64,000 bases of DNA, from positions 37,996 through 101,995 of the IMG/VR virus record IMGVR_UViG_3300033148_003591; one strand, 5' to 3'. The notes below the pieces were generated by a model. It worked only from the letters and a program-made list of their open reading frames with translations. It was not told the DNA's origin and did no database searches. Origin of the DNA: a virus. The position numbers and the translations under genes were made by a program. This document shows positions 9,302 to 43,828 of the stretch, piece by piece (position 1 is the first letter of the stretch; each line of letters starts with the position of its first letter).

Positions 9302-10138
9302 TTATTCTCCAATCCTTTCTAAAAAATGGCAAGTGTTACATGGATATGATTTTTTACCATTTTTACTAACCGATTTTCTAAATTTATTAGCCTTTTTATT
9401 ATTAAAAATACTGAATATAGTTTCATTTTTATCTGTTAATTCACCCAAAATAAATTGTTCATGTTCTTTCCAATCACTTCTTAAATTACAGCACGGCATA
9501 ACAGAGCCATTATAGTCAATGTAAATACCATTAGTGGGTATAAAACATGGTGCAATTCTGTGTGGGGGTTTATTTAATGCTTTTAATATTCCTCCTCTAT
9601 TTGAACCAACATTTTTAAAATTTCTATAATATATTAATATTTCCATATCATTAAAATTAGTATCTTTTTGAATAAGTTCACTATTTATTTTATGACTATT
9701 AGGCTTCAATTTTAGTTCGGCAAGCTTATCACCAATCATGTCTAATACTTTTTCTTGTTTATCAGTATATATTTGAATATTTAAACTCCTTAATCCGTTG
9801 TCGTATAATTTAGAAATTTTATTTGCTGTTAAAAAATCGCCATTAGTATTAAAGTGTAATGTTGCATTTGGAAGATTTATTTTTGCATAATTTAATCTAT
9901 TATAAATTATATCATCTGCTAAAGGTTCATTATACCTAGAATATGTTATTATTTTATTATAGTTTATTTCTTTTAAATTAGCGATTATTTTATTATATGT
10001 ACAAGTATTCATAAATATATTTTTAGAATTTCTATCAATTATTGAATTAGGACAATGCCAGCACTGTCTATTACAATAAGAAAATGTTTCTATTTCTATT
10101 AAGTTTACAAGTTTTTTAAATCGTTTCATATTATTCAT
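9302..10138 (-). CDS. Radical SAM protein with SPASM-type C-terminus
   Basis: 278 residues from ATG 10138, which has GGAGA 7 nt upstream and overlaps the end of the fusion gene by 8 nt. The 4Fe-4S/SAM motif CNRQCWHC (CX3CX2C) is at residues 22-29, followed by FNTNGDFL (GGE-like/SAM binding) typical of the barrel. The last third (PCFIPTNGIYIDYNGSVMPC, then CC-N and a final CNTCHF) looks like a SPASM or twitch domain holding extra iron-sulfur clusters, as in peptide- or sugar-modifying enzymes. Directly coupled to the giant fusion and the KdsA gene, so it probably works on the same substrate, which is unknown. Confidence 0.8.
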   Translation of the reverse strand: MNNMKRFKKLVNLIEIETFSYCNRQCWHCPNSIIDRNSKNIFMNTCTYNKIIANLKEINYNKIITYSRYNEPLADDIIYNRLNYAKINLPNATLHFNTNGDFLTANKISKLYDNGLRSLNIQIYTDKQEKVLDMIGDKLAELKLKPNSHKINSELIQKDTNFNDMEILIYYRNFKNVGSNRGGILKALNKPPHRIAPCFIPTNGIYIDYNGSVMPCCNLRSDWKEHEQFILGELTDKNETIFSIFNNKKANKFRKSVSKNGKKSYPCNTCHFLERIGE

Positions 10139-13100
10139 GATTTCTCCAGTTTTTCCCGTATAACTGTTCAAGATACCCTATAACTGGCATTGGTACTGAT
10201 AGATTGCATCCATATAAACTTCTTGGTTTAGTATTTTTTGTCCATTTTAAAATATGAACTTTTATGCCATTTTTTGCATATGTATTTTTTTCTTCATCAT
10301 GTATAAACATTTTTTGCCTTAATAGGTTACTATTAATCTCTGGTGCTGATATAAAAATATCTGTTGTTGTACTTGATAATTTTGATTTTTTAATAGCTTC
10401 AAGGCATGTTCTTTGAAGTAAACAACAATCAGGAACTATATTTATAAAATCTAAAAATACACTTTGTATATTATCACTTACTTTAGGTACAATATTTGTT
10501 GTCTTTTTTTCTACTTCAATTATATCGGCAACTGGATAATTAACCAATTCGTATGGAGTTTGGTATCTAATATGTTTAACACGTTCTAATGTGCTACTAC
10601 CTCTTGAAGTCATTTTCATTTCGCACTCCATATAAAATTTATTTTTTAAATAATGCAAGAATTTTTCAACCAAATGCATATCGGGTTTTCTTGGATGATG
10701 AATATATTTTTTAAGTTTTCTTATACTATTCGCTTTTTTATTTATACCTTTAAAATTATAGAAACACTTACCTACAGTTATTACAGGTTTTCCCCACATC
10801 ATTGCTTGCAACCCAATACCAGAATTTATTGTTAAAACTATATCCGAATATTTAATGCAGTCTTTATAATGATATTTATCTACGATTTTAACATTTTTAC
10901 TTTCAGTCATTAATGTTGTTTCCACCGGATGATTCTTAACTAGAAATTCTACATTTCTCATACTGCATCCTAATTCCTTTATAATGTTTTGAAAATTAGG
11001 CATAGATTTTACCCAATCACTCCATAATAATATAGTTGTATCATTATATACCTGTGACGCAACGAAAACTTTAATTGTATCTTTAGATAAATCTAATTCT
11101 TCATAGAAGGTTTTTTTAGTAACAAATTCAGCATGCTGTTTTTCTAAGCTACATTCATCCTCAGTGAAAGATTTAATATATTCTTTAATTTGTTTCTTTT
11201 CATAGGCTGTTATTTTAACATCCCAATTTTTCTTTTTATATGAATCACTAAAGTATAAAAAGTTGTGCATATCTAAATAAATGCTTCCAGGTAATGCTCC
11301 ACGTTCAAGTACATAAGCTAATTTTCCAGCTTCTTTAAATTCATGCAACAAATCGTATTTCCATTGAAACTTCTTTGCTATTGTATAACTATATGTATTC
11401 CAAAGAATTAATGCTTTATTAGATTTTTTAACTCTTTCTATATTTCTGTCTAATTCAATGTCTAAATATTTGCTTAATTCTACAACATAAGGGTGTCTAA
11501 CTTCAGGACTGATAAATTGTATTTTTTTGATTTGACTAATTTTATCTTGTACTATTTTAAATTTAGGATTATTTTGGTCTGTAAAGAAATTTTTTTCTTT
11601 ATTAGAACATTCTTCAGTAAATAAAGACCCAAATGCTCCTAATAAGGCATACAGGTTTAATTCCGTTGGGTTTTTTTGTAGAATCTTCCATAATTTTACA
11701 GGAACTTTGGTATATTTATCTTTATTATTTTTAGTTCTATCCATCATATTATAATATCTTTGAAATATTGTGTAGTTTGACCAATAAGGACAATGGTCTC
11801 CCATAACCCTTCTGTCGTTTATTGTAGTAAAACCGTCATTTAGCAGTGCGATTTTTTGAGTATTTTCGCAGCATAAAGTATCTTCAAAAGGATACTTTTT
11901 TAATATTTCCGTTCTATTAATTCTAACGCCTTTAATTTTTCTATTCATATGTACATCATACAGGGAAAATAATAATGTAGAAACAGTTGGTTCATTTTTT
12001 AACATACTTGTGTGCATATTATTAACAGCTTCAGGTTTTAAAATGATATCTTCATCACATTGGATAAAGTATGGTGTTTTACACCTAATCATCATTTGAT
12101 TAAATGCGTCTGACATGGGTGCAATATCTTCTATTATGTCTAGTTTAAAATCAACGGTTTGGTTTTTTAAAGCCAATAGACATGCTTGATAATTTTTTTT
12201 CTTTTCAACAGCAATTACAAATACAGTTACATCTGAAGAAATATCTTGTTTTCCCTTATCCCATGCCCGCACTACATTTTTTGTTCTATAATGAATATCT
12301 CTATTCGTCATTCCTTTTTTTGATAAATCTATATCAGTATAAAATTTCGTGCCAGGAAAAGGTTCAAATTTATACCACCCTTGTACAGATAATTTATTTT
12401 TTTTAATAAAATCCAAAGTCATTTGTCTTTCTTCTTCTGTTTCTCCTGGTATATGATGCATAAAAGATGCTCGAACTGGTAACTTAATTGAACGTGCTAT
12501 GTCTATAGTATTTTGATTGTCGGCTACTGTGTTACCTTTGTTTAATATTTTTAGCACCCTATCACTTCCACTTTCAGCACCAAATCTAACTTCGTAATAA
12601 CCCATCTCTTTCATTTTTATAGCCGTTTCTAATGTAAACACACCGGCTCTAACAAAACTTCTTATCTTTAACCTTTTATGCCATCCTCTTGCCATCCACA
12701 TTTCATGAATTTTATTAAAGCGTGGTTTGTTTACGATAAATAAATCATCATAAATGTACAATGTTTTAATTTGAGGATATTTTTTAATTAAGAAATCAAC
12801 TTCTTTTATAAAATATTCAGCACTATGGAATCTTGTATTACCCCAAAAAACTTGTGAGCTACAAAAATTACAAGAAAATGGACACCCTCTTGAAGTGAAA
12901 ATAGGAATAACATCTGTACACCGACCTCGTTCTGGATAATTTAATGTATCAATATTTTCAATGTTTGGTAATTGAATAATTTTTTCGCTTGGGTTATTTT
13001 TTATAATATGATTTAAAGCTTGTTCACCCTCACCTTTTATTATATGTTTAAATGGGTATTTTTCTAAATCTTCCCAAAGCGTACATTGTCCACCAATAAT

Positions 13101-13319
13101 GATAGGAATGTTTTTAATTGATTTTAGAATTTGAATAGCTTCTTGAATACCCCAAGCATTAGAAGATAATCCTATATAGTCACAGTTTTTTAATTCCTTT
13201 GGGTTTCTAATTAATTCAATATCAGCATTACAATTGGTTTTTAGATAACCTATGCTCAATGGATATTCATTGTCAACAGGGTCTTCCCACCCACACTGAT
13301 ACATTTTAATTTTTTTCAT
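10131..13319 (-). CDS. Giant fusion: B12-binding radical SAM, GT2 and capsule-type transferase
   Basis: 1062 residues with several domains in one frame. Residues about 1-125: B12-binding-like Rossmann region (DYIGLSSNAWG, IPIIIGGQCTLW, GEGEQAL), though the cobalamin His motif is not obvious. About 135-335: radical SAM barrel with C146/C150/C153 (RGCPFSCNFC) and RFGAESGSDRVL. About 363-470: GT2-like domain (VTVFVIAVEKKKNYQACL ... IQCDEDIIL, DED at 422-424). About 610-880: capsule-polysaccharide/KpsS-like transferase (LERGALPGSIYLD, FLVKNHPVE, VLTINSGIGLQAMMWGKPV). The end (PVIGYLEQLYGKNW) recalls LicD-type enzymes. Lies directly before a SPASM protein and after KdsA. Likely builds or attaches an unusual sugar; acceptor unknown. 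Confidence 0.8.
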   Translation of the reverse strand: MKKIKMYQCGWEDPVDNEYPLSIGYLKTNCNADIELIRNPKELKNCDYIGLSSNAWGIQEAIQILKSIKNIPIIIGGQCTLWEDLEKYPFKHIIKGEGEQALNHIIKNNPSEKIIQLPNIENIDTLNYPERGRCTDVIPIFTSRGCPFSCNFCSSQVFWGNTRFHSAEYFIKEVDFLIKKYPQIKTLYIYDDLFIVNKPRFNKIHEMWMARGWHKRLKIRSFVRAGVFTLETAIKMKEMGYYEVRFGAESGSDRVLKILNKGNTVADNQNTIDIARSIKLPVRASFMHHIPGETEEERQMTLDFIKKNKLSVQGWYKFEPFPGTKFYTDIDLSKKGMTNRDIHYRTKNVVRAWDKGKQDISSDVTVFVIAVEKKKNYQACLLALKNQTVDFKLDIIEDIAPMSDAFNQMMIRCKTPYFIQCDEDIILKPEAVNNMHTSMLKNEPTVSTLLFSLYDVHMNRKIKGVRINRTEILKKYPFEDTLCCENTQKIALLNDGFTTINDRRVMGDHCPYWSNYTIFQRYYNMMDRTKNNKDKYTKVPVKLWKILQKNPTELNLYALLGAFGSLFTEECSNKEKNFFTDQNNPKFKIVQDKISQIKKIQFISPEVRHPYVVELSKYLDIELDRNIERVKKSNKALILWNTYSYTIAKKFQWKYDLLHEFKEAGKLAYVLERGALPGSIYLDMHNFLYFSDSYKKKNWDVKITAYEKKQIKEYIKSFTEDECSLEKQHAEFVTKKTFYEELDLSKDTIKVFVASQVYNDTTILLWSDWVKSMPNFQNIIKELGCSMRNVEFLVKNHPVETTLMTESKNVKIVDKYHYKDCIKYSDIVLTINSGIGLQAMMWGKPVITVGKCFYNFKGINKKANSIRKLKKYIHHPRKPDMHLVEKFLHYLKNKFYMECEMKMTSRGSSTLERVKHIRYQTPYELVNYPVADIIEVEKKTTNIVPKVSDNIQSVFLDFINIVPDCCLLQRTCLEAIKKSKLSSTTTDIFISAPEINSNLLRQKMFIHDEEKNTYAKNGIKVHILKWTKNTKPRSLYGCNLSVPMPVIGYLEQLYGKNWRNHE

Positions 13320-14122
13320 TACATCCCTTCCATTATTTTTAAAGTTTGTTTAACTACGTTTTCCGCTTCTGAGAAATTAAGAGAATTACTACCGTCACAT
13401 AAAGCTTTTTTTGGTGTTGGGTGAATTTCCATAAATATACCATTAACTCCATATGCTACTGAAGCTCTTGCTAAAGGTAAAATAAATTCTTTATTACCTA
13501 ATGATTTATTTCCACCAGCACTCGGTAACTGAACAGAATGAGTGCAATCAAATACTACAGGGTAATATTGTTTCATTATTGTAAACCCTGTAAAATCTAC
13601 TACTAATCTATGATACCCAAAAGAAGTTCCACGTTCTGTAAGTATAATATTAGTATTATTTTGGCTTTCAATTTTTTTAATTACATGTACTATATCATCT
13701 GGAGCTATAAATTGCCCCTTTTTAATATTAATTATTCTGCCTGTCTTTGCTAACCCTCCAACTAAATCTGTTTGTCTGCATAAGAATGCGGGTATTTGCA
13801 GAATATCTAAAGGTGATTTTTCTACCTCTTTTATTTCTGCTACAGAATGAACATCTGTTAATATTGGCAAATCGTATAAAATTTTTACTTGAGTTAAAAG
13901 TTCTATACCTCTTTTAATGCCCAAACCTCTATAAGCATCGTAAGAGGTTCTATTAGCTTTATCATAACTAGCTTTAAAAATAAACTGACACCCATATTTC
14001 ATTTTTAATTTTTTGACAAATCTTGCAGTTTCAAATAAAATCTTGTAATTTTCTATAGCACAATTTCCTACAATAAAAAATAATTTTGATTTTTTTATTT
14101 TGTCATACAATTTATTTTTCAT
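13319..14122 (-). CDS. kdsA: 3-deoxy-8-phosphooctulonate (Kdo-8-P) synthase
   Basis: 267 residues, near full family length. Condenses phosphoenolpyruvate with arabinose 5-phosphate, the first dedicated step to Kdo. Family motifs in order: GNCAIEN, FKASYDKANR, PILTDVHSV, LQIPAFLCRQTDL, NIKKGQFIAP, ERGTSFGYH, VVFDCTHSVQ, FMEIHPTP. The Cys at residue 21 in GNCAIEN corresponds to the metal-ligand Cys of the metal-dependent class. Start shares 4 nt with the upstream cupin gene and its stop shares 1 nt with the fusion gene, so the three are co-translated. A phage kdsA is rare; related NeuB-like enzymes are the main alternative, but the motifs favour KdsA. Confidence 0.88.
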   Translation of the reverse strand: MKNKLYDKIKKSKLFFIVGNCAIENYKILFETARFVKKLKMKYGCQFIFKASYDKANRTSYDAYRGLGIKRGIELLTQVKILYDLPILTDVHSVAEIKEVEKSPLDILQIPAFLCRQTDLVGGLAKTGRIINIKKGQFIAPDDIVHVIKKIESQNNTNIILTERGTSFGYHRLVVDFTGFTIMKQYYPVVFDCTHSVQLPSAGGNKSLGNKEFILPLARASVAYGVNGIFMEIHPTPKKALCDGSNSLNFSEAENVVKQTLKIMEGM

Positions 14123-14517
14123 AGGTTTAATAATCCTTTATCTTTTAACTCTGGTATAGGTATTTCTGCACCATCAATAATTAACCCACCCTGAATCTGT
14201 CTAATTATATCATCTGGATTTATATCAGTGTCAATTGTATAAGCTATTTCAATTAGCACAGAATTTTCTAAAGCTTTAAATTTATGCACTAATGGTGGAT
14301 GAACTTCAAAAGTTTCATTTATGCCTAATACTTTAGTACCAAGTTCACTTATAATTTCCACTTTACCAGAAACCAATATAAACTTGTTTATTTTTTCTTT
14401 GTGATGATGCACAGAGCAAAAACTATCTCTCTTTAACTGCAATAAATCTATTTCGTTGTGATTATCAAGATGAATTCTTTGTTTAATACCCCAAATTTTA
14501 AAACTATTATTTGACAT
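14119..14517 (-). CDS. Cupin-domain sugar isomerase-like protein
   Basis: 132 residues, one cupin barrel. Metal-binding motif 1 is SVHHHKEKINKFILVSG (His-His-His then Lys/Glu spacing), motif 2 is HPPLVHKFKAL. This is like mannose-6-phosphate-isomerase type cupins and nucleotide-sugar epimerases. Translationally coupled to kdsA (ATGA) and to the basic gene upstream (TAATG), which suggests a step in preparing the sugar, for instance an isomerisation feeding KdsA. Reaction not proven by sequence. Confidence 0.65.
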   Translation of the reverse strand: MSNNSFKIWGIKQRIHLDNHNEIDLLQLKRDSFCSVHHHKEKINKFILVSGKVEIISELGTKVLGINETFEVHPPLVHKFKALENSVLIEIAYTIDTDINPDDIIRQIQGGLIIDGAEIPIPELKDKGLLNL

Positions 14518-14895: not shown

Positions 14896-15495
14896 TTATT
14901 TGAATTCTATTACGTTATCACCGAAATCTAAAAAATCTCCTTTGTGATGTGTTATGAGAATTGTTTGCATATCGAATTTTTTAACTATAGATTTTAAGCA
15001 TTCTCCTGTTTGTTTAATATCACCTGCACCAATTTGACTGAATGGTTCATCCAATTTTAAAATAATACCTCCTTCCGGTTTGACAAAACCCAACACAACC
15101 ATTCTTAATATCAAAGCAATTAAATCCTTTTGTCCACCAGCATTAGAGTCTTCAGGCTCGTGTGGTTCGGACATATCTGGTGTTTTAATGTACACCTTTG
15201 CTTCTGGAATAGCTCCTCTACGGTCAAATTCTAACTCTAAATGATGACCATCGCCAAATACTGACTGCAATGCATTGGTGCTGACTAACTCAAATCCTTC
15301 TTTCATTTTTTGCTGCAATGCCTTTTGAGCAATATCCAATACTTCAATACATTTTTGAAATAATTCTTTATTGGCTTTATTGGTGTCCACTTTTGTTTCA
15401 AGTTCATTGATTTTGAGTGTTAATGATTTATGAACACCATCTAAACTATAGACTTCTTTTTCTAAATTTTGATAGGTTTCTAATAAATTATTCAT
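14896..15495 (-). CDS. Rad50/SbcC-like ATPase, C-terminal half
   Basis: 199 residues from ATG 15495 (AGGAG ahead; the stop of the preceding small gene overlaps it as TAATG). Residues 1-70 are coiled coil. Then comes the C-terminal lobe of a Rad50/SbcC ATPase: signature motif NAGGQKDLIALILR (LSGGQ-like), Walker B IILKLDEPFSQIGAG with the catalytic Glu, and the switch His in TILITHHKGDFL. There is no Walker A. The matching N-terminal half with Walker A is the gene at 22015, about 6.5 kb upstream in the transcript. The two presumably assemble with the SbcD-like nuclease at 16376. Confidence 0.82.
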   Translation of the reverse strand: MNNLLETYQNLEKEVYSLDGVHKSLTLKINELETKVDTNKANKELFQKCIEVLDIAQKALQQKMKEGFELVSTNALQSVFGDGHHLELEFDRRGAIPEAKVYIKTPDMSEPHEPEDSNAGGQKDLIALILRMVVLGFVKPEGGIILKLDEPFSQIGAGDIKQTGECLKSIVKKFDMQTILITHHKGDFLDFGDNVIEFK

Positions 15496-15623
15496 TATTT
15501 TACTCCTTGATGATACCATATAGAAAAATCTTTCAAAGGAATTTCTATTATAATCTTTACAACTTTTAAACGGTTAGATTTGTCATAAATATATATGTAT
15601 TTATTTTTCCCTTTTTTATTCAT
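15495..15623 (-). CDS. Small basic hypothetical protein
   Basis: 42 residues (KNKYIYIYDKSNRLKVVKI centre), a predicted beta-rich mini protein with alternating hydrophobic residues. Its start overlaps the stop of the gene upstream by 1 nt, and its stop overlaps the Rad50 half gene start by 1 nt, so it is likely translated. Function unknown. Confidence 0.5.
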   Translation of the reverse strand: MNKKGKNKYIYIYDKSNRLKVVKIIIEIPLKDFSIWYHQGVK

Positions 15624-15841
15624 TATTCTTCCTCTTCATTTGATGGTAAAACATCAGGCAATATAAATGCTTTAATAATCTCAACTAACCCTAAACATTT
15701 TATAGAGTCACCATTGAATGTATGAACCATTTCAGCTTCTCCATCATTCAATATTTTCTCTCCTATTATAACAATACTATCTGTTCTGTTTACTAATTCT
15801 TCTATTAAATCATCCATAGGCACTAAACTTAATTCACTCAT
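15623..15841 (-). CDS. Small acidic hypothetical protein
   Basis: 72 residues, acidic, ending SNEEEE. Core alternates helix and strand (SIVIIGEKILNDGEAEMVH). Chained by a 4-nt overlap to the coiled-coil gene upstream and a 1-nt overlap to the next gene. No family recognised; the acidic tail could bind a DNA-metabolism partner. Confidence 0.5.
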   Translation of the reverse strand: MSELSLVPMDDLIEELVNRTDSIVIIGEKILNDGEAEMVHTFNGDSIKCLGLVEIIKAFILPDVLPSNEEEE

Positions 15842-16068
15842 TTTATTCCTAACTTTTTTTTGCCATCAGCAAGTAATTTACTATATTCTTCTTCAGAATT
15901 TTCTAACACAACTTCTGCTTCATCTATAGCTATTCCCATTTCTGTAATAGTTTTTACCTCTTCATCTCTTTCTTTTTTTTGATTTGCAATTCTTTCTTCT
16001 AATTTAACTATTTCCATTTTGTTATCATTATTAACTTTTTCTAATTGTTCAAGCTCTTTATCTGCCAT
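15838..16068 (-). CDS. Small coiled-coil protein
   Basis: 76 residues from ATG 16068, which has GGAGG about 8 nt upstream; a TTG at 16083 is in frame but lies just upstream of that site. Nearly the whole protein is one charged heptad-type helix (LEQLEKVNNDNKMEIVKLEE). It lies between the SbcD-like nuclease and the Rad50 C-terminal half, so it might supply coil for the split Rad50 complex; this is speculation from position and composition. Confidence 0.55.
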   Translation of the reverse strand: MADKELEQLEKVNNDNKMEIVKLEERIANQKKERDEEVKTITEMGIAIDEAEVVLENSEEEYSKLLADGKKKLGIK

Positions 16069-16069
16069 T

Positions 16070-16375
16070 TTATTTTCCTCCAAATTTAATTTTATCTTCT
16101 AAAATTATTGTTAATCTGTTTGTTCCTCCTATCCATTCACATGGATTGCCAGAAAAATATTTACCTTTTATTTTAAATTTAAATTCTGATAATTTATTTC
16201 CAAATAATTTTAGAATGAATTTTAAATCAACATCTACTATAATAATTTTGGTTTTTTTAATTGAAGTTATAAAATGTTCAATTTCTGGATATGGATAAGT
16301 AGCAGCGTCAAAAATATTTGATATTATTAAACTTTCGAGTGTGCCAATTGGTTTGTTTCTATAATATACTTTCAT
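16070..16375 (-). CDS. Hypothetical protein next to SbcD-like nuclease
   Basis: 101 residues, beta-rich with several Lys/Ile strands (KKTKIIIVDVDLKFILKLF) and a turn NPCEWIGGTNRL. Not recognised. Sits immediately after the SbcD-like gene (stop and start adjoining), in the recombination operon. Confidence 0.5.
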   Translation of the reverse strand: MKVYYRNKPIGTLESLIISNIFDAATYPYPEIEHFITSIKKTKIIIVDVDLKFILKLFGNKLSEFKFKIKGKYFSGNPCEWIGGTNRLTIILEDKIKFGGK

Positions 16376-17320
16376 TTATTCTCCTTTTTCGCATAACCCA
16401 ATTCGTTCTCTCAAATTTTTCACAACAGGTTCTTCAGTTTTTGACGACTCACACACTCCCATAACCACATCTATCACCTTCATTGTTTGAATTTTAATAT
16501 TTTTTAATCCGGCTGTAAACATTTCCATTTTCTTTTTATTCTCTTTTTGAATAGATAATGCTTTTAAATCAAATATATCTTCTACCTTTTTAGCTGATTT
16601 TAATGGTATAATATCAATATCATATAATTTATTTTTTTTAATAGTTATTATGGCAATAGAAGGTATTCTATTTATATCATATTCATCAGCTTTACATCTT
16701 GCTATTGCTCCAGGGGCAATAAAAACAGGGTCTTGTTCTTTTTTAATACCCCAATACTTATGATTGTGTGAAACTAGCACTATATCGTAATTAGTTTTTA
16801 TATTTTCATAATAAACGCTAGTAGTAAACCACACTTTTACATCCACTATCATTGCATGGGGAACGTATATAGTTAATTTATCTTTTTTATCATGCTGTGG
16901 AAATTCTTTATTTAAATCATCTTCAATTCCTACATAATACTCTTGTCCTTTAATATAAATATTTTCATCTTCATATTCACCAAGTTGTTTAATATATTTA
17001 CTTCTTCTAAACATATGAGCTAATGATGTTGCATTTGATAGTGACCAATTATTAAACGCTTCATCATGATTACCAGGAGCTATAAGAATATTTATTTTAT
17101 ATTTTTCAATTAAATCAATAAACCAATCACTTAAAACATTACTCACTAAATAACCGTCATATACATCTGCTCCACAAATGATTAATTTTACTTTTTCTTT
17201 TTTAGCAATATCGAGTGATTCTACTATTTTAGCTTTAATGGCTTCACAATAGTTATCTGTGCGATTGCGTGGATTAACACCTTTAAGGTGCATATCTGTG
17301 ATGTAGAGTATCTTAGACAT
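16376..17320 (-). CDS. SbcD/Mre11-like nuclease (T4 gp47-type)
   Basis: 314 residues. Calcineurin-like phosphoesterase motifs in order: ITDMHLKG (D9, H11), GADVYDG, IAPGNHDE, VSHNHKYWG, matching the two-metal site of SbcD/Mre11 nucleases. Partner of Rad50/SbcC ATPases in processing DNA ends and hairpins for recombination and replication. The two ATPase halves flank it in the same leftward transcript (C-half downstream, N-half upstream). The C-terminal helical segment (KMEMFTAGLKNI) may bind the ATPase coil base. Confidence 0.82.
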   Translation of the reverse strand: MSKILYITDMHLKGVNPRNRTDNYCEAIKAKIVESLDIAKKEKVKLIICGADVYDGYLVSNVLSDWFIDLIEKYKINILIAPGNHDEAFNNWSLSNATSLAHMFRRSKYIKQLGEYEDENIYIKGQEYYVGIEDDLNKEFPQHDKKDKLTIYVPHAMIVDVKVWFTTSVYYENIKTNYDIVLVSHNHKYWGIKKEQDPVFIAPGAIARCKADEYDINRIPSIAIITIKKNKLYDIDIIPLKSAKKVEDIFDLKALSIQKENKKKMEMFTAGLKNIKIQTMKVIDVVMGVCESSKTEEPVVKNLRERIGLCEKGE

Positions 17321-17337
17321 AAATAATTCCTATTTTA

Positions 17338-17469
17338 TTAATCTTCTACTTCAACAAAAAATACTTCCGGTTCAGGTAAGTTTAATTCTTTAACTTTTAA
17401 AACATAATATCCAACAAATTGTATTGGTTCGCCTTTATAATCTTCTTTTCTAATCATTTTATATTTCAT
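17338..17469 (-). CDS. Small hypothetical protein
   Basis: 43 residues, basic N-terminus and acidic C-terminus (EPEVFFVEVED). Start overlaps the upstream gene's stop by 4 nt (ATGA). Too short to classify. Confidence 0.45.
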   Translation of the reverse strand: MKYKMIRKEDYKGEPIQFVGYYVLKVKELNLPEPEVFFVEVED

Positions 17470-17690
17470 TTGTCATGATACTCCTTTAAATGTTCTGCGA
17501 AATAAAACGTTGATTTTTTTTGAAGGCTTTTTATATATTTAAATAAATCGTCTCTCCAATCATCATATGAATGAATATCTCTATCGTTGGTTTTTATGTA
17601 ATAATCAAATTCGTGGTCGCCACCTATTTTTAATGTTCCTTCTTTTTCTGGTAGATGTCCTCTATCTATTTTAATAATTTCAAATCCCAT
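17466..17690 (-). CDS. Small acidic hypothetical protein
   Basis: 74 residues with many Asp/Lys and an aromatic centre (DHEFDYYIKTNDRDIHSYDD). No recognised motif. AAGGAG ahead of the ATG. Coupled by 4 nt to the next gene. Confidence 0.5.
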   Translation of the reverse strand: MGFEIIKIDRGHLPEKEGTLKIGGDHEFDYYIKTNDRDIHSYDDWRDDLFKYIKSLQKKSTFYFAEHLKEYHDK

Positions 17691-17692
17691 GA

Positions 17693-18013
17693 TTATTCTC
17701 CTTTCAAAGTTAAAACTATAACTGATGATTGTTCAGTAATTCCAAATGTTCTAAATAATTTTCTAGCTTCTTTAAAGTTCATTCCTGTATCAGTACATAT
17801 TAATCCTTTGGGAATACTATTAAAATTTAAATATTCAGCGTTTATTAAAGTAGCTTTACAATGTAGTTTACCATTAAGTAACACATTAAATTCAGTATCT
17901 TCTTGACCCTTATAATAATTCCATTTTTTATAATCATACTTACGAATAGTAGTAAATATTTGTTGATTTAATTTCAAATTCCAATTATGACTGAAACGTA
18001 TATTATTCATCAT
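17693..18013 (-). CDS. ASCH/PUA-like domain protein
   Basis: 106 residues. The opening FSHNWNLKLNQQIFTTIRKYD, the FNVLLNGKLHCKATLI strand pair and the ICTDTGMNFKEARKLFRTF helix fit ASCH-type small domains of phages, thought to bind RNA or nucleotides. Start overlaps the upstream stop (ATGA). Assignment by pattern only. Confidence 0.5.
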   Translation of the reverse strand: MMNNIRFSHNWNLKLNQQIFTTIRKYDYKKWNYYKGQEDTEFNVLLNGKLHCKATLINAEYLNFNSIPKGLICTDTGMNFKEARKLFRTFGITEQSSVIVLTLKGE

Positions 18014-18291
18014 TTACCTCTTTTATCCATTAATTTAGCTATTTTTACAATATCATGGTCAGCATTTTCGATAGCATTAATATCTTTCCACAACATCTCT
18101 GATAAATCTTCAGCACCATGCTTATCAGCTATTTCTATTATTTCAGCCACAATTTGTCTCATTTGTTGATAAAGCTCATTTAATTTCAACGCATCTGTAT
18201 GGAAATTAGTTTTCTTTAAATATGAAGATTTCCATTTAATTCCCAATTTTTTACATATTGATTCTATTCTATATGCGATACGGTAACACAT
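18010..18291 (-). CDS. Helical hypothetical protein
   Basis: 93 residues, almost all alpha-helix, with regularly spaced Leu/Ile (LNELYQQMRQIVAEIIEIAD), likely a small helical bundle. Translationally coupled to both neighbours (1-nt overlap before, 4-nt overlap after). Unknown function. Confidence 0.5.
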   Translation of the reverse strand: MCYRIAYRIESICKKLGIKWKSSYLKKTNFHTDALKLNELYQQMRQIVAEIIEIADKHGAEDLSEMLWKDINAIENADHDIVKIAKLMDKRGK

Positions 18292-18557
18292 TATTTATCT
18301 CCAGTTGATATTTCATAAATTTTATTTCCATTTATATCATGTTTAATATTATCAATTTTTAGTATAGGCATTTTGGTATTCCATTTTGATTTATCAATAG
18401 ATTTAGTATCCATATTAATTTTATACCACATATTATCTTTTGTGTTTTTTGGTAACACATTTATATGGAATTCACCATTGTGTTCACAAATGGATATTCG
18501 ATGTCCATTATCTGTTTTTAAAATCATTGAATTATTAAATTGATTTATGATTTTCAT
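18291..18557 (-). CDS. Hypothetical protein, paralogue of 25866-26081
   Basis: 88 residues. The block LKTDNGHRISICEHNGEFHINVL lines up with LETKEGNQICICMRDDTFEINVL of the 71-residue gene at 25866, followed in both by a Trp-Tyr/His strand and an IDK/IEK ending, so they are duplicates about 7.5 kb apart. Beta-rich small domain, function unknown. Confidence 0.55.
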   Translation of the reverse strand: MKIINQFNNSMILKTDNGHRISICEHNGEFHINVLPKNTKDNMWYKINMDTKSIDKSKWNTKMPILKIDNIKHDINGNKIYEISTGDK

Positions 18558-18560
18558 TAT

Positions 18561-18683
18561 TTATTCTCCTAATAGTAATTCTCTCATTTCCTTTAAGCAT
18601 TTTAATAATTGATTAAATTTTTGAGGTGTAACTTTTTCACCTTTTGCTAATATTATTGGGTCAGGTAACTTTTCTAATTGCAT
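18561..18683 (-). CDS. Very small hypothetical protein
   Basis: 40 residues (LPDPIILAKGEKVTPQKFNQ then a Leu-rich helix). GAGGAGG sits just before the ATG, and that ATG overlaps the stop of the SprT-like gene by 1 nt, which supports real translation. Confidence 0.5.
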   Translation of the reverse strand: MQLEKLPDPIILAKGEKVTPQKFNQLLKCLKEMRELLLGE

Positions 18684-19273
18684 TATTTTTCCTCCTCAAA
18701 TCTTTTTTGACACAATTCACATACTGCACTTAATTCAGTGGCACACCTAACAACAGTACATCCACAATTAAATTTTTTCATTTTAGTTGGTGCTGCAATT
18801 TTACTTGATTCTTTTCTCACCATTTTAAACACATTATAATTAACATTCATTTCTTCTACGGCTAATTTAAGTTTATCACTCATACATGTCATTGCCCATC
18901 CGAACCTACCAGCCTTTTGTACGTTTAAACCGTAATTTTCAGCACGCTCTCTAAATGCTTTATTATGATACTGAGAAGCACTGCAATCTGGAATTTTATC
19001 TACACAATTATGATAATGTGCCATCTCATGTATTAGTGTTTCAATTGGGTTTCTGTTTAATACTTCTGCACAGATGTTAATCTCACTCAATTTAATATCA
19101 TCGCCATTACTCCATTTTTCTGTCCAATGCCATCCTAATGTTTGACCTCTACCCTTACTTTGAATAGTTATAATAGGTCTACGAGCTGTAAATTTATATC
19201 TATCTGCTATAAGGTCATATATTCTTTCTAATTCTCTTATTGCTGGACATATGCTATTTTGTTTAGTTTTCAT
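18683..19273 (-). CDS. SprT-like zinc metalloprotease
   Basis: 196 residues from ATG 19273 (GAGGG upstream; a longer start at 19300 would run further into the upstream gene). Contains ETLIHEMAHYHN, the HExxH zinc site of SprT/Spartan-type proteases, a downstream HNKAFRERAENYGL segment providing the third ligand region, and a C-terminal zinc ribbon (CGC ... CELCQKRF). Spartan-type enzymes cut proteins cross-linked to DNA; in phages the role is inferred. Lies in the DNA-metabolism operon. Confidence 0.78.
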   Translation of the reverse strand: MKTKQNSICPAIRELERIYDLIADRYKFTARRPIITIQSKGRGQTLGWHWTEKWSNGDDIKLSEINICAEVLNRNPIETLIHEMAHYHNCVDKIPDCSASQYHNKAFRERAENYGLNVQKAGRFGWAMTCMSDKLKLAVEEMNVNYNVFKMVRKESSKIAAPTKMKKFNCGCTVVRCATELSAVCELCQKRFEEEK

Positions 19274-19275
19274 TT

Positions 19276-19497
19276 TTAACCCTCTAAATTTTTTAACCAT
19301 ATTTCATATGCATAATCGAATTTTTCAGACCCTTGACCTGGAGCAGTTTCACATAGGTGTATAATTTTTTCAACTTCTTCAAATGGATTAAGATTATGTT
19401 TTTTGCACTCAGGATAAATAATAGAAACAATACTACTATCTCCTAGTTGTTCTACTATTCCATCTAAAATTGATTGTAATAATATATCATTTGTCAT
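19276..19497 (-). CDS. Small helical hypothetical protein
   Basis: 73 residues from ATG 19497, chosen because GGAGA lies upstream and the stop of the preceding gene overlaps it (ATGA); an in-frame start 60 nt earlier lies inside that gene. Helical, mildly acidic. No family recognised. Confidence 0.5.
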   Translation of the reverse strand: MTNDILLQSILDGIVEQLGDSSIVSIIYPECKKHNLNPFEEVEKIIHLCETAPGQGSEKFDYAYEIWLKNLEG

Positions 19498-19769
19498 AAA
19501 AATTTCTCCAAGTATTTTAAGGGTTCTGTTTCTAATACCATTTGTTGTAAGTGCCATTTCCAGTTTTCAATAGGAATAAAATTCATTGCATTTGTAATAA
19601 TTTTATCTTTTAACATTTCTTCACCCCAAAAAGCTTTAGCAAAATCGTGTGAAAAAATATAATTAAAAATCAATAATTCTTCATTAGATTTATTACATTC
19701 AAAATCTAATAATCTTAAATCTCTACCTGTATTTTTAAATATTTTATTTAATATTTCTTTATCTGTCAT
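19494..19769 (-). CDS. Hypothetical protein of the HDFAKAFWG/WxxHLQQM family
   Basis: 91 residues from ATG 19769 (AAGGA upstream; an earlier GTG is less well placed). Shares HDFAKAFWGEEM, the NWKWHLQQMV block and the LKYLEKFL end with the 148-residue gene at 51467, so it is a shortened paralogue. These motifs look like a small conserved phage family without known function. Confidence 0.6.
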   Translation of the reverse strand: MTDKEILNKIFKNTGRDLRLLDFECNKSNEELLIFNYIFSHDFAKAFWGEEMLKDKIITNAMNFIPIENWKWHLQQMVLETEPLKYLEKFL

Positions 19770-19783
19770 TATATTATCCTTTA

Positions 19784-20317
19784 TTAATCCCACAAATTGA
19801 AAAAGTATTTTCTAAATAAATCAAATCCCTTATAAAATTTTTTACTCTCTTGATGTGTAAATACTATTGAATTATCGTATAAATCAGAATTATCTCTCAT
19901 CATTGTTCTCAATTTAAGATATTGTTTTCTATTTTTTGTTAAATAAACTTCATGATTAGATACTTTTTGAGCCATTTTAAAAGTCCAAGTGATTCTCTTT
20001 AAAATATCATCCCATTTTTGTTTAGTTAAATTTGTTGGATACCCATGACTATTTTTTCTAAGATGTTCTACACTATCAGCTATAACATTAGCAAGGTAGG
20101 TATCTAATCCCCATGTATCATAATTAGCCCACCCTTTGTTAGCTCTTTGAAAATAGCCTGGTAATAACACACGGAAAAAGAAAAGTATGTCTTTCCATTT
20201 TACTACGATAGATAACCAAATATTATAATACAACCAACCAGCAATAGTTTTTTCTTTGGCTTCTCTTTCTTTTCTAATTTCATCCATCATTTCTTTAACT
20301 GATTTATATTTCTTCAT
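19784..20317 (-). CDS. Conserved phage protein with hydrophobic N-terminus
   Basis: 177 residues. Residues about 25-55 form an amphipathic-to-hydrophobic helix (GWLYYNIWLSIVVKWKDILF). The centre ANKGWANYDTWGLDTYLAN followed by KNSHGYPTNLTKQKWDDI matches a recurring phage protein pattern (a Gly-Trp/Tyr-x-x-x-Asp-x-Trp core and HGYP motif) of unknown function. First gene after the promoter at 20336-20363, with AAGGAG before the ATG. Confidence 0.55.
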   Translation of the reverse strand: MKKYKSVKEMMDEIRKEREAKEKTIAGWLYYNIWLSIVVKWKDILFFFRVLLPGYFQRANKGWANYDTWGLDTYLANVIADSVEHLRKNSHGYPTNLTKQKWDDILKRITWTFKMAQKVSNHEVYLTKNRKQYLKLRTMMRDNSDLYDNSIVFTHQESKKFYKGFDLFRKYFFNLWD

Positions 20318-20335
20318 TTAATTCTCCTTACTATA

Positions 20336-20363
20336 ATTATATCACATAAAATGGATTTGTCAA
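20336..20363 (-). promoter_or_regulatory. Early sigma70-like promoter
   Basis: - strand: TAAGCCCTTGACA (-35 at 20358-20363), 16-bp spacer, TGA then a perfect TATAAT (-10 at 20336-20341), then TATAGTAAGGAG before the gene at 19784. The TAA is the stop of the HNH gene upstream, so the promoter begins right at a gene border. Confidence 0.85.
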
Positions 20364-20367
20364 GGGC

Positions 20368-21084
20368 TTATTTATCTTTATTCTCCATTATATATGTAAA
20401 ATAAGCATACCAATAATCTCTATTAAAATTAGCTCTAAGATTACAGCATCTGCAAGTTGTTATTAAATTATTATCATCACAATTTTGTTTGTCATAATCA
20501 ATATGATGAATATGTAATAATTGATGATATTTTTCTTTATGCTTAGTTTCTATTATTCCACAGACCTGACATTTATAATTATCTCGTATTTTAATTTTAC
20601 GTTTTAATATTTTTGAAAATGTTAACGGATATGGTTTATTACCTTCTCCATGAATATAGGATGAATTATTTTCGCCCATATTTATTTTACTCCAGCAATC
20701 ATAACATCTTTGTGCTGTCCAACTAATTTCTTTTTTACATTTTTTACAATAATTGGGAGTAATACTTTTTCCATGTTTATAACTAGGTGCATTCTTACCA
20801 ATTCTTAATTTACCACCTCTAGGCTTGTTTTTTCGGCTTTTAGGAAAGCAAATTATACATAGTTTACTATCATAATTCATTAATTGCTTTCCACAATTCA
20901 AGCAAAATGGTTTCCCACCTTTCCAATTAGGATTATCTTTCCCTCCCCGTCGCTTACCATATTGAGGATTTAATTTGCCTAAATTAGCACATCTTCTGCA
21001 TCTTTGGTTTCCATAAAGAGCTGTTCTTTTACATATTTTATTTACTTTACAATTTTTGCAATAGTATTTTTTAATCTTTATCAT
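20368..21084 (-). CDS. HNH homing endonuclease with multiple zinc fingers
   Basis: 238 residues. Four CxxC-type zinc knuckles in the first two thirds (CKNC, CRRC, CLNC with CIIC, CKKC with CYDC) alternate with NUMOD3-like DNA-binding motifs (NPQYGKRRGGKD, NPNWKGG, GENNSSYIHG). The C-terminal nuclease is CQVC ... HIHHIDYDKQNCDDNNL ... CRCC, a zinc-stapled HNH. Starts 14 nt inside the end of the DNA ligase gene and stops beside the early promoter at 20336, as expected for a mobile gene dropped behind a conserved one. Confidence 0.85.
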   Translation of the reverse strand: MIKIKKYYCKNCKVNKICKRTALYGNQRCRRCANLGKLNPQYGKRRGGKDNPNWKGGKPFCLNCGKQLMNYDSKLCIICFPKSRKNKPRGGKLRIGKNAPSYKHGKSITPNYCKKCKKEISWTAQRCYDCWSKINMGENNSSYIHGEGNKPYPLTFSKILKRKIKIRDNYKCQVCGIIETKHKEKYHQLLHIHHIDYDKQNCDDNNLITTCRCCNLRANFNRDYWYAYFTYIMENKDK

Positions 21085-22015
21085 TTCTATATCTCACAAA
21101 AACAGGATGTCTAGGTACATTTAATGCTCCCTCCAGCATTCCTTTATATTCAATTATTTTATTTATATAGTTTTCTTTATTATCCCAAATTTCCTCTTTT
21201 TCCTTATCAGTTAATGCAATTACTACCTTTAAATCATTACCTTTATATTCAACCAAAAATGCTGCTGCTTTATTAATTAAAATTCTATCATCTTTCTTTT
21301 TTGAAGTTTTTGAATATCCAAGTTCGGTAATTTCTTTTTCAGCAGACGGATTAACAACAGTCGCTTGAATTACATCTTTAATTTTACTATCAAATGTACG
21401 AAAATTTTTTATTTTATATACTAAACCTTCTTTTAATGTTCCACGTCCACATTTATAGTGTCCGTTTGGGTCTTTTAATATTAATCCTTCATATCCATCT
21501 TTTAATGCATCTTCAAAAAAATTCTCTATATCGCTTTTTGAATTTAAAGAAGTTTGAATGACTGGAATTATTAAATCATTTCGGCAAATTGAAATCACAG
21601 TAACATTTTTATTTCTGTTAATGAATTGGTTATTATAATTTTCATTTGCAATACAATCAAACATATAAAATTTTAATACTTCTGGTATTTCTAATATCTC
21701 ACCGAATTTTTTAATGCTCTTTTTATCTTCAAAATCTTGTGTCATTACATATCTTGTGATTTCTTGGAATGTCATTCTATGTGCATAAATTTCTCCATCT
21801 AAAATTACATTAAATTCTTTTGAATAATCTTTTAATGGTTGAAATTTTTTTTGAAGCTGTTTATTTTGTATTTGTTTTAAAGAACGGCTTAACATTTCTC
21901 CGTTTTTAAATATACATCTTATTCCATCCAATTTATAGCTCGCTAATATAGGATAATTTATTTCATCTAAATTAACAGATTGATTTGGTGCAAGAAACGG
22001 TTTAAATGATTTCAT
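21071..22015 (-). CDS. ATP-dependent DNA ligase
   Basis: 314 residues, a minimal phage ligase. Nucleotidyltransferase motifs in order: ASYKLDGIRC (KxDG, AMP-accepting Lys), LDGEIYAHR, DCIANENY, DGYEGLILKDPNG and VYKIKNF. The C-terminal part (about 230-314) is the OB domain. Seals nicks during phage replication. Overlaps the Rad50 N-half upstream by 1 nt and the HNH gene downstream by 14 nt. Confidence 0.88.
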   Translation of the reverse strand: MKSFKPFLAPNQSVNLDEINYPILASYKLDGIRCIFKNGEMLSRSLKQIQNKQLQKKFQPLKDYSKEFNVILDGEIYAHRMTFQEITRYVMTQDFEDKKSIKKFGEILEIPEVLKFYMFDCIANENYNNQFINRNKNVTVISICRNDLIIPVIQTSLNSKSDIENFFEDALKDGYEGLILKDPNGHYKCGRGTLKEGLVYKIKNFRTFDSKIKDVIQATVVNPSAEKEITELGYSKTSKKKDDRILINKAAAFLVEYKGNDLKVVIALTDKEKEEIWDNKENYINKIIEYKGMLEGALNVPRHPVFVRYRNDKD

Positions 22016-23295
22016 TATTTATCTCCTAAATTGTATTTACAGTTAGGACACATTCCAGTATCCTTACCAATTTTAATTAATTCCTTTATTTTCACATCAT
22101 TTTGCTCTATTTGGCTTGTAAGAGCACTTTTCTGACTTTCGAGTGTCTTTATTGCTTTATTAGCAGAAGTAAGCTGTATCACGCTGTTTTTAATGGTTTT
22201 GACCCTATTATGCAACTCTTTTAAGGCTGATATATCTATCTGCTGAGATTTTTTAGTTAAAAGCTCCTTTTCGTATGTTTTAATGTTTGTAGTAGATATT
22301 TTATACTCATTTAATAATCTGGACAATTTATCTATTTTTTTGGACAGTTCTTTAATTGGTGATAAATTTATTACATGTAATGTTGATAATTTTTCTTCAT
22401 CACTTTTAATATTAACAGTAAGTCTATTATGATTTTTTATTAAAGGGGTTAATAAATTGTTCTTATTGTTTATTTTTTTGAGTGTATCAATTTCATCTTG
22501 ATTAATAATTTTTATTTTACTTTTTGATAAATTTAGTTCCTGTAAATTGCAATTAATTTCTTCTATTTTATCAACAGCTATTCTAAGTTTTTTATTACGT
22601 TTTTCTAATTCTGTTATTTCATCTATTATTGTTTTAACTTCATTTAATAAAACTCTTTTTGTGGTTAATTCATAATCTACTTTATTTGCATGTTCTCTAT
22701 TACTATTTAATTCTGTTTCTAAAATTCCTTTTTCTCTATTAATTCCAGAGATATCTTTGTTATATGAATGAACAGTTCTATCTATTACTTCACAGCCCGT
22801 AAGTTTATTTAATATTTTCATTCTAAACGAACCCTTTTCACCTAAAAAGAAATAAGGCTCTTTTTGTTTAGTAAAATCCAATAGTAATTTTTCACCATCA
22901 ACTTCTAATTCTACCTTACCTAATAGTTCTGCAATTTTAGGAGGAATAATTTTACCTACTTTTTTATATTCATCAGGTTTTACTTTGCCAGGATAATAAA
23001 CTTCATAACGATTAATAGTGCTAGATTTAATTTTTCCAGTTTTTTTATCTCTAGTTACGTGCTTAATTCTTTTAATCTTAATTCCACTATCTAATGTAGC
23101 AGTAAATGAACATTTAGTTTCTCCATCACGTACAATAGAGCGTTGTGGTTCTCCGTATAACCACATTAAACCTCTTAACACACCAGTCTTGCCCATTCCA
23201 CTATCACCATGTAATATGTTAAGACCTTTTGTAAGAGGTAAAGTTAAATCCTTATGTTTTTGTATATTTTTTAATTTAAACTCTGTGAAGTGCAT
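22015..23295 (-). CDS. Rad50/SbcC-like ATPase, N-terminal half ending in the zinc hook
   Basis: 426 residues. Residues 1-150 are the N-terminal ATPase lobe: F-x-L-K-N-I-Q-K-H start, Walker A HGDSGMGKTGVLRG, and a Q-loop-like FTKQKEPYFFLGE. Residues about 165-405 are coiled coil, and the protein ends with CPNCKYNLG, the CxxC zinc hook. There is no signature motif and no Walker B; these are encoded by the separate gene at 14896. A full Rad50/SbcC has both lobes in one chain with the hook in the middle, so this is a split at or near the hook. Partner nuclease is at 16376. Confidence 0.83.
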   Translation of the reverse strand: MHFTEFKLKNIQKHKDLTLPLTKGLNILHGDSGMGKTGVLRGLMWLYGEPQRSIVRDGETKCSFTATLDSGIKIKRIKHVTRDKKTGKIKSSTINRYEVYYPGKVKPDEYKKVGKIIPPKIAELLGKVELEVDGEKLLLDFTKQKEPYFFLGEKGSFRMKILNKLTGCEVIDRTVHSYNKDISGINREKGILETELNSNREHANKVDYELTTKRVLLNEVKTIIDEITELEKRNKKLRIAVDKIEEINCNLQELNLSKSKIKIINQDEIDTLKKINNKNNLLTPLIKNHNRLTVNIKSDEEKLSTLHVINLSPIKELSKKIDKLSRLLNEYKISTTNIKTYEKELLTKKSQQIDISALKELHNRVKTIKNSVIQLTSANKAIKTLESQKSALTSQIEQNDVKIKELIKIGKDTGMCPNCKYNLGDK

Positions 23296-23307: not shown

Positions 23308-23889
23308 TTATTTCGTTTTCCATTTAGAACCTTTAGTTAAATTATCTTTTGCCCACAAAGGCTGTAAGTTTGTGTAATTAAAGCATTTACGTTGTTCAGA
23401 TTTTTTACTTAAATCAAAGCTGATACATGGTCTTTTGTGGTCAATGTGCCACTTACCATAGTTATCCCAATTCATTCCTTTAGTAAATTGAGACTGAAGA
23501 TGATATAATAAATAGTCAACTTCGCAACCAATTAAAAACATTGTGGATAGTGATTTATTATTATTTTTTATAGAAGCATTCATACGTCTTCGTAAATTAC
23601 GCAGAATTTTAAAATTTATATCTTTTTTATATTTATCTGTAAACCATTTATTCTTTTCTTTTTTATGTTTTGAATTATATTTTTTAACATCCAGAGATAT
23701 TTTTTCTTTATTTTTTAATCTATAAATAACTCGCCATTTTTTATATTCAAACTTATGATTATCTCTGTATTTTTTATTTCTTATATTATCACATATTTTA
23801 CACCAACTACATTTTCCATCAACATGGGATGCATTTGGATAAAATTCATCTAAAGATTTTTCTATTTTACATTTAGTACAAATTTTCAT
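23308..23889 (-). CDS. HNH homing endonuclease, paralogue of 3885-4652
   Basis: 193 residues from ATG 23889, which shares 1 nt with the stop of the A1-like gene; an in-frame ATG at 23901 is also possible. Zinc ribbon CTKC ... CKIC, a Lys-rich linker shorter than in the paralogue, then LSTMFLIGCEVDYLL and the HNH core WHIDHKRPCISFDL ... NYTNLQPLWAKDNL. Inserted between the A1-like gene and the Rad50 N-half. Confidence 0.85.
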   Translation of the reverse strand: MKICTKCKIEKSLDEFYPNASHVDGKCSWCKICDNIRNKKYRDNHKFEYKKWRVIYRLKNKEKISLDVKKYNSKHKKEKNKWFTDKYKKDINFKILRNLRRRMNASIKNNNKSLSTMFLIGCEVDYLLYHLQSQFTKGMNWDNYGKWHIDHKRPCISFDLSKKSEQRKCFNYTNLQPLWAKDNLTKGSKWKTK

Positions 23890-25481
23890 TACAGTTTCCA
23901 TTTCCCATATACAGAAAATATCATTTGTCTACTTCCATTAGAATAAACTAAGCATCCAGCATTAGCCCATCCACTAGCCCCTCTATTATAACCCACTTTA
24001 AGATATGTACTTGTTCCTACAACCCACACACCACGAACAATGGCTGGAGAATGAGCATGACCAATTATACAATTACCATAAGCATTTTCTAAGTTTCTAA
24101 TATTTCCTCTTGAGCCATTGCTACCTAAATCACCGTGAGCACCACATTCAATCTTGGCAATTACATAATCTTCATCCCTATTTAGCCATTTAATTGATTT
24201 TCTTAATCTCTTGGGTAATCTGCCTACACTTTCAATGGCATATTTTAATGGGTCACAACCCTTAATTTGTGCTTCGGCTAAATGTAAAGCTGTTCTTAAA
24301 TTATATGGGTCATGAATATAATCTCCACTTTCTAACCATTTATCAAGCCATTCATCATGATTTGATTTAACAATAACAATTTCTTTAACACCGTTTAATC
24401 GTATACCTTTAATATAATTTGCTATTTTAATAAACTCATTATCCATGTTTAATTGTCCTTTTATAGCCTTTCTTGCTTGTAATGAGCGTCTTTTTTTATC
24501 GTGATGGCATACTGCTGTACCATTGTATAAATCATGAATAATCCATTTTTTACAATTTGTGAATTTTGAAATTTCATACCAATTTCTTATTACCTCTAAA
24601 TCTGTATCACCAATATGAAAATCTCCAGGTACAAATGCTGTAGGAGCTAATTTAGATACTTTATTGTTATTATATAACTTACCTAAATCCACAAATGAAC
24701 CATTTGCATCTGCTTGAATCTGTCTAAAATAAAATACACGGCTATCTTTAATTTCAACAATGATAGCACCTAATGTATGGTCACTTTCAGCAATATAAGC
24801 AGTTCGTTTGCTAAAATAATAACTACTGTCATAATCTGATTCTGTAATTGCGCCTGTGGTCATTAATACGGCAGGTATTTTTACATTTGAAACAGGCACT
24901 GCTTCTAAGAACTGTTTAGGTGATGCATAAATACAGCTTCCATTCCTTTGACCTATACGTTTTAATCCGGTTAATGGATTAATTTGTTTGGCTGAAATTT
25001 TGATTGAAGAAATGAATAAATTATTATTTAACTTCGTATCTCTCATAATAACTTGTTCGCCCTTTAAATCATTACTTAAATAGAATTCTGTTTTACTTCT
25101 TCTTTTTGCAGGGTCTTCAATTGGAAGAATAAGTAATTTGGCTTTATTTACTTTACAATAGTGTTTAATACTATTTAAAAATTTAACATTTACTTTTCCA
25201 TCAGATACGGCTGTTGTTACTATAAATTTATCTCCTGGCTTTACATTTAATTGTTCTTTTTTTACAGTGCCATCGAAAATATTAAATCCAATATTATTTT
25301 CAATTAATTTTTTATTTTCTTTTATAACTATTTTCTTTAAATTTGTAAGACAAGCAAAATGTTTCCTGATAATATTTCGATTTATACCAGCATTAAACAT
25401 GTCTGTTCTTGTAGGAAAGGTTTTTTTAGTTTTTAATATTGATAAATAAATATCTATTATTTGTTTATCTCTTTTTGTCAT
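23889..25481 (-). CDS. T5 A1-like metallophosphoesterase
   Basis: 530 residues. N-terminal helix-turn-helix-like region (RDKQIIDIYLSILKT), then a calcineurin-type phosphoesterase core: VPGDFHIGDTD, IIHDLYNG, IVKSNHDEWLDKWL, CGAHGDLGSNGSRG, IIGHAHSPAIV. This arrangement resembles the A1 protein of T5, which is needed for host DNA breakdown and completion of DNA entry. A role in degrading host DNA is inferred from that resemblance. The start lies 2 nt after the stop of the small gene upstream, with GGAG inside that gene's end. Confidence 0.7.
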   Translation of the reverse strand: MTKRDKQIIDIYLSILKTKKTFPTRTDMFNAGINRNIIRKHFACLTNLKKIVIKENKKLIENNIGFNIFDGTVKKEQLNVKPGDKFIVTTAVSDGKVNVKFLNSIKHYCKVNKAKLLILPIEDPAKRRSKTEFYLSNDLKGEQVIMRDTKLNNNLFISSIKISAKQINPLTGLKRIGQRNGSCIYASPKQFLEAVPVSNVKIPAVLMTTGAITESDYDSSYYFSKRTAYIAESDHTLGAIIVEIKDSRVFYFRQIQADANGSFVDLGKLYNNNKVSKLAPTAFVPGDFHIGDTDLEVIRNWYEISKFTNCKKWIIHDLYNGTAVCHHDKKRRSLQARKAIKGQLNMDNEFIKIANYIKGIRLNGVKEIVIVKSNHDEWLDKWLESGDYIHDPYNLRTALHLAEAQIKGCDPLKYAIESVGRLPKRLRKSIKWLNRDEDYVIAKIECGAHGDLGSNGSRGNIRNLENAYGNCIIGHAHSPAIVRGVWVVGTSTYLKVGYNRGASGWANAGCLVYSNGSRQMIFSVYGKWKL

Positions 25482-29777: not shown

Positions 29778-29792
29778 TACCAATCATCTCCT

Positions 29793-43792: not shown

Positions 43793-43828
43793 TGTTCTCC
43801 TCAATTTTATATTTTTTAATTTATCTAT

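Follow-up and report, generated by a model that had tools for sequence, protein, structure and literature searches.

The locus described here raises the question of whether a Mre11-Rad50 machine can be built around a Rad50 that is not one continuous chain. The window, by which is meant the whole stretch of 64,000 nucleotides analysed, covers the 64 kb at the end of a virus record of 101,995 bases, and a sequence-only reading of it had proposed that Rad50/SbcC is encoded there by two separate genes about 6.5 kb apart, with an SbcD-like nuclease gene between them. Both open reading frames are present as described, and the nuclease gene is placed between them. Transcription on the minus strand runs from the N-half through a DNA ligase, an HNH endonuclease and several small genes to an SbcD/Mre11-like phosphoesterase, and then through ORFs of 101 aa, 76 aa (the coiled-coil ORF) and 72 aa to the C-half. 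The features on which the argument depends are these:

22015-23295, minus strand: Rad50/SbcC N-half, 426 aa (AAA_23 and family profile match to Rad50)
about 23185-23208, minus strand: Walker A of the N-half
about 22039-22050, minus strand: CPNC hook of the N-half
16376-17320, minus strand: SbcD/Mre11-like calcineurin phosphoesterase, 314 aa (PF00149, E 1e-10; phrog_100, SbcD-like, E 3e-8)
15838-16068 (ORF to 16083), minus strand: small coiled-coil protein, 76 aa (leave-out model match and position)
14896-15495 (ORF extends to 15519), minus strand: Rad50/SbcC C-half, 199 aa (family profile match to Rad50)
about 15133-15140, minus strand: signature motif of the C-half
about 15046-15060, minus strand: Walker B of the C-half
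about 14947-14949, minus strand: His switch of the C-half

The surrounding genes are varied. The N-half and an HNH gene are directly preceded by a gene (23889-25481, minus strand) for a 530-aa protein matching phrog_1745, "DNA transfer protein" (E 2e-100), and free-standing HNH/endonuclease VII-like genes occur among the replication genes at 3885-4652, 20368-21084, 23308-23901, 31225-31713, 32861-33385, 40121-40672 and 48129-48599, several of these seven being alike in sequence. A 388-aa RuvB-like protein with RuvB_N and RuvB_C domains and a hydrophobic N-terminal stretch (58247-59413, minus strand) is unusual in a phage. Two adjacent Clp-protease-family genes of differing sequence (28583-29146 and 29148-29783, minus strand; PF00574, E 4e-35 and 1.5e-25), a trypsin-like peptidase gene (44184-45335, minus strand) and a gene for an MgtC-family membrane protein (43373-43804, minus strand) are also present. 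On the other side of the C-half, a 1,062-aa protein that combines radical SAM and capsule-synthesis domains (10131-13319, minus strand) is adjoined by genes for a DAHP/KDO8P-synthase-family protein (13319-14122) and a mannose-6-P isomerase-like cupin (14119-14517); these are surface sugar genes in a phage.

The two halves carry complementary parts of one ATPase. In the N-half, Walker A (GDSGMGKT, residues 30-37) and the Q-loop glutamine (Gln144) are followed by a long coil and by CPNC at residues 416-419, after which 7 residues remain to the C-terminus, and AAA_23 scores above the Pfam cut-off. The C-half likely starts at the ATG at 15495, which is preceded by aaggag and gives 199 aa; about 62 residues of coil precede the signature (NAGGQ), Walker B (LKLDE) and the switch (THH), and Pfam reports nothing above cut-off in this protein. 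The motifs that the sequence-only reading had assigned to each gene, and its statement that each half lacks what the other holds, are thereby borne out. That reading had also allowed that one half might belong to another ABC-ATPase, or that a full-length SbcC might lie elsewhere in the genome. Against solved structures, the N-half family profile ranks M. jannaschii Rad50 first (E 7e-21) and the C-half profile the P. furiosus Rad50 C-terminal chain (E 8e-15), so that archaeal Rad50 is the best solved-structure match of both, a likeness to the cellular SbcCD/Mre11-Rad50 system; Rad50 chains top both rankings, with no closer match among RecN, SMC or ABC transporter proteins. Because both match Rad50 best, neither half belongs to another ATPase family. 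No further SbcC was found in the 102-kb record, itself possibly incomplete, which holds one N-half and one C-half only.

An ABC ATPase site requires both lobes, and the N-half and C-half would therefore have to meet. The two would co-fold into one ABC head, the N-half supplying the lobe with Walker A and Q-loop together with a single ascending arm that has a zinc hook at its very C-terminus, and the C-half contributing the signature/Walker B/His-switch lobe; if so, both halves would be needed for ATP binding and for head dimerisation.

Split homologues were found in many related viral sequences. Locus searches with single sequences found nothing, and alignments proved too loose for this purpose when they comprised 15 divergent rows; scanning C-half alignments against IMG/VR yielded more than 120 further loci. 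After removal of false matches, 130 true C-half loci remained, falling into 101 clusters at 90% identity and 34 at 50%, with Bacillus phage vB_BboS-125 entered twice, as a GenBank record and as an IMG/VR contig. An N-half was in reach at 111 of the 130, the remainder being mostly cut by contig ends, and in all 111 it is a separate gene, upstream and on the same strand; among true family members, no fused form with both lobes on one polypeptide was seen. The N-to-C distance ranges from 0.2 to 6.5 kb over the 111 loci, the window having the largest, and C-halves are mostly 190-225 aa long. A scan of genome contigs gave five weak matches, none with an N-half and all taken as false; among them, L135 is a protein of ABC-transporter type that has a Walker A of its own, and L134 is a RecN-like ATPase. 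A RecN (MT835614) served as negative control, and Bacillus phage 0305phi8-36 lies outside the collection. Because more than 100 divergent loci keep the same arrangement, chance is excluded. In Bacillus phage vB_BboS-125, for example, the parts are gp32 (471 aa, ending CPLCEQTHKGGGC), gp34 (a 78-aa coil) and gp35 (211 aa). An assembly error or frameshift, by which a single gene would have been broken in the record, might be suspected of a metagenomic sequence; however, the same break is found in isolates (Bacillus phage vB_BboS-125, Microcystis phage Mvi-JY20) as well as in metagenomes, and other genes are located between the halves. As independent genomes share the break, this explanation is already refuted, and its probability is negligible.

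The break had been placed at or near the hook, and this holds throughout the family. CPNC closes the N-half of the window, and a terminal C-x-x-C is present in 109 of 111 loci (counted after removal of the RecN control and of a duplicate of the window), the protein ending 2 to 23 residues after the last such motif. Wider-spaced hook cysteines, CPIHKCVC and CPIFSLPC, occur in the N-halves L100:6799-7869 and L120:7110-8210. Microbacterium phage Magritte gp155 (L144:7809-8891) is an N-half by profile (E 2e-36) without a terminal CxxC, and lies far from the Mre11 (gp228), coil (gp245) and C-half (gp2) of that phage; in the same genome gp247 (L005:15006-16244), annotated as an ASCE ATPase, resembles a sliding clamp. 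In 21 aligned N-halves the Walker A glycine and lysine, the Q-loop glutamine and the CP of the hook are invariant, and the second hook cysteine is kept in at least 90%; in 15 C-halves the GG of the signature, the LDE of Walker B and one glutamine are invariant, and the T and H of the switch nearly so.

The age of the split was approached through a tree of the head lobes (N- and C-lobes only), which is blind to the split itself. It separates 92 split loci from 10 intact proteins with no exception (support 0.83-0.97), the intact sequences being few and mostly T4-like. The nearest relative of the window is L118 (0.98), and the nearest intact relative of the split forms is Pseudomonas phage UAntarctica uan_082, which, unlike them, is one chain of 750 aa with arms of 208 and 228 residues and an internal CPTC hook. 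Since the split forms make up one clade, the sequences suggest that the division of Rad50 most likely happened once and is old. It has also to be asked if the halves are remnants of an sbcC broken by homing endonucleases or deletions, either decaying or employed in new, unrelated jobs, as HNH genes (20368-21084 and 23308-23901) do flank or separate the pieces in the window. However, more than 100 divergent loci retain every catalytic motif in the two halves, with the break always at the hook, and the split forms are one clade; decay of this kind is accordingly very improbable.

The Rad50 system probably has three parts, the third conserved member being a small coil that the first reading overlooked. 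A coiled-coil gene of 75-110 residues stands just upstream of the C-half in at least 123 of the 130 loci; the other seven are contig ends, save L036, where the match is on the opposite strand, and L044, where a coil is seen by eye. The family consensus is helix, LKEEFGCSTLEEAKKLL, helix, and in the window a helix, the break EMGIAIDEAE and a second helix. A model was built from 27 training examples, each group being left out in turn for testing; within each locus shown, the window included, it gave the correct ORF the best score; several single leave-out scores are weak, that of the window ORF being E 0.05, yet the best among all window ORFs. At 107 loci outside the training set the best short match falls at the same place in nearly all, and a search of 5,704 short ORFs gave only two besides the small coils with E < 0.01. 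Since the scan had selected for the C-half only, the position of the hook and the small coil are independent findings.

Most simply, the small coil may fill the missing hook-side stretch of the descending arm, packing against the N-arm over the stretch that separates the hook from the C-half coil. On the phrog_77 profile, the L118 N-half ends at position 645 and the window C-half extrapolates to a start near 737, and the gap between them matches the size of the small coil. A different reading is that Rad50 is in two parts joined only at the head, with the small coil as a regulator or adaptor that binds, for example, Mre11 or the coil base of the C-half; Nbs1 in eukaryotes is such a partner. 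Its position is conserved while its sequence is poorly so, its length stays constant while the N-arm grows, and it is parted from the C-half by other genes, even one for a sliding clamp, in several phages. However, its length fits the gap from hook to C-half in the shortest class as well as in the phrog_77 profile, and it nearly always adjoins the C-half even where Mre11 lies elsewhere; a regulatory role is thus deemed rather unlikely, though a serious contender.

The lengths of the arms bear on how the parts could fit together. The coils had been judged unequal (about 240 against 70 residues), and in the window the N-arm, counted from where the N-lobe ends up to the hook, has 241 residues, against about 62 in the C-half. 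Across the family, N-arms of 137-342 residues fall into classes of about 144, 174-197, 227-241, 294 and 340, the loci being related and their lengths not independent draws; these classes correspond to 3-7 units with a period of 47 residues, the window belonging to the 5-unit class. Pooled self-comparison of 94 N-arms gives a peak at offset 47 above the general helix background and a further one at 94; offset 47 is the top peak in the 3-, 5- and 6-7-unit classes and the third in the 4-unit class. In L131, four units spaced 45-49 residues apart are found outright, whereas the window arm alone has weak 47-residue periodicity, the period being clear only in pooled arms and the long classes. When the arms of 11 intact Rad50s are pooled, with E. 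coli SbcC and T4 gp46 among them, no peak appears at 47 and the best offset is 42. The cassette is also carried by L143, a 485-kb uncultured huge phage (LR745208), in whose N-half arm repeats are visible by eye.

In intact Rad50s the lengths of the ascending and descending arms rise together over a range of about 100 to 385 residues, but split forms lack such matching: there the coil and C-half together measure 283-305 residues, near 290, whatever the length of the N-arm. The idea that the coil compensates for N-arm length was rejected, the small coil being no longer where the N-arm is longer. In the shortest (3-unit) class the N-half through the hook has 304 residues and the coil plus C-half 283, while in intact members of the gp46 family the stretch up to and including the hook has 282-296 aa and the remainder 258-282 (291 and 269 in gp46), so that the parts sum to about a T4 gp46 cut twice; here the hairpin would be complete but nicked at two points. 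In forms of 4-7 units the N-arm is 40-200 residues longer than the descending parts, and a plain antiparallel hairpin is thus not the whole answer. The earlier suggestion that the usual hairpin could form only if another protein supplied coil finds an answer in the conserved small coiled-coil gene, but the arms stay unequal even with it (241 against about 62 plus 76 in the window). The 47-residue repeat in the long N-arms implies that the extra length probably folds on itself, the surplus helical repeats of the longer forms, such as the window, being without a partner.

The remaining member of the locus is the nuclease, which in the window retains the motifs DMH, GNHD and SHNH. Where nuclease and Rad50 genes are both seen, 70 loci have the Mre11-like gene between the N-half and the coil and 28 have it following the C-half, counts that are approximate because the nuclease profile cross-matches N-halves. 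In Bacillus phage vB_BboS-125 it falls just after gp35 (L002, about 11250-12230) and is unannotated in the public record. At L013 (7051-9174) Mre11 is fused to the Rad50 N-half in a 707-aa protein with metallophosphatase and AAA_23 domains that ends CPLCKQNLPESLVV, with the small coil and C-half separate and downstream; this fusion ties the N-half to the nuclease. Mre11/Rad50 fusions, Mimivirus R555 among them, are described in PMC3175470, where, for those of Bacillus phage 0305phi8-36 and Anaerostipes, one SbcC P-loop NTPase segment "was not observed"; in the accessible portion of that paper, neither a separate gene for the missing half nor a small coil is reported.

Taken together, these data indicate that the locus probably encodes a viral Mre11-Rad50 machine in which Rad50 consists of three polypeptides. 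The model proposes that two N-arms are joined at the hook by four cysteines, which would bind zinc, that rod length is set by the number of N-arm repeats, and that the complex with the SbcD-like nuclease may resect or cut DNA ends, in recombination-dependent replication or in host DNA breakdown. This function is read from T4 gp46/gp47, to which both roles are ascribed in PMC3175470 and PMC5105663. Like the split form, T4 gp46/gp47 (PHROG 77/PHROG 100) has Rad50-type lobes, a zinc hook, a Mre11 partner and, in the 3-unit class, a similar total size, but T4 gp46 is a single chain whose two arms match in length (112 and 124 residues). Likewise, the arms of cellular SbcCD/Mre11-Rad50 are covalently joined and of similar length (330 and 385 in E. 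coli SbcC), with no 47-residue period. More tentatively, with the case for and against nearly balanced, this may be a Rad50-class machine without a continuous hairpin; its free-standing, hook-ended arm would consist of tandem helical units, 3 to 7 in number and about 47 residues each, braced by the small coil, and arm length would evolve by unit addition, uncoupled from the other ATPase half.

Relatives of gp46 occur in 2,455 of 50,697 phage records, whereas the split form is found in very few isolates. PHROG 16465 ("exonuclease"), 15167 ("ATPase") and 18563 (function unknown) are the N-half, C-half and small coil of the Bacillus-type members, listed as separate families, and no literature joining them into one system was found. 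In the openly readable literature, outside which most subscription papers fall, no description of a split Rad50 was found, the closest pointer being PMC3175470 with its fusions that lack one NTPase segment; a survey of jumbo phages (PMC7824862) gives SbcC and SbcD as near universal and, in its accessible portion, does not mention a split.

The split system is a natural test of the need for Rad50's continuous hairpin, and bears on the open question of how the head communicates with a distant hook along the coil, as a natural Rad50 interrupted both at the hook and within the descending arm reveals which connections are dispensable. Its two lobes can be expressed separately, one arm piece can be removed, and the arms form a length series. 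With three separately annotated database families joined, a core recombination function becomes recognisable in numerous phages known only from uncultivated material, and also in isolates; in one of these, Microcystis phage Mvi-JY20, all four genes of the system are annotated "hypothetical".
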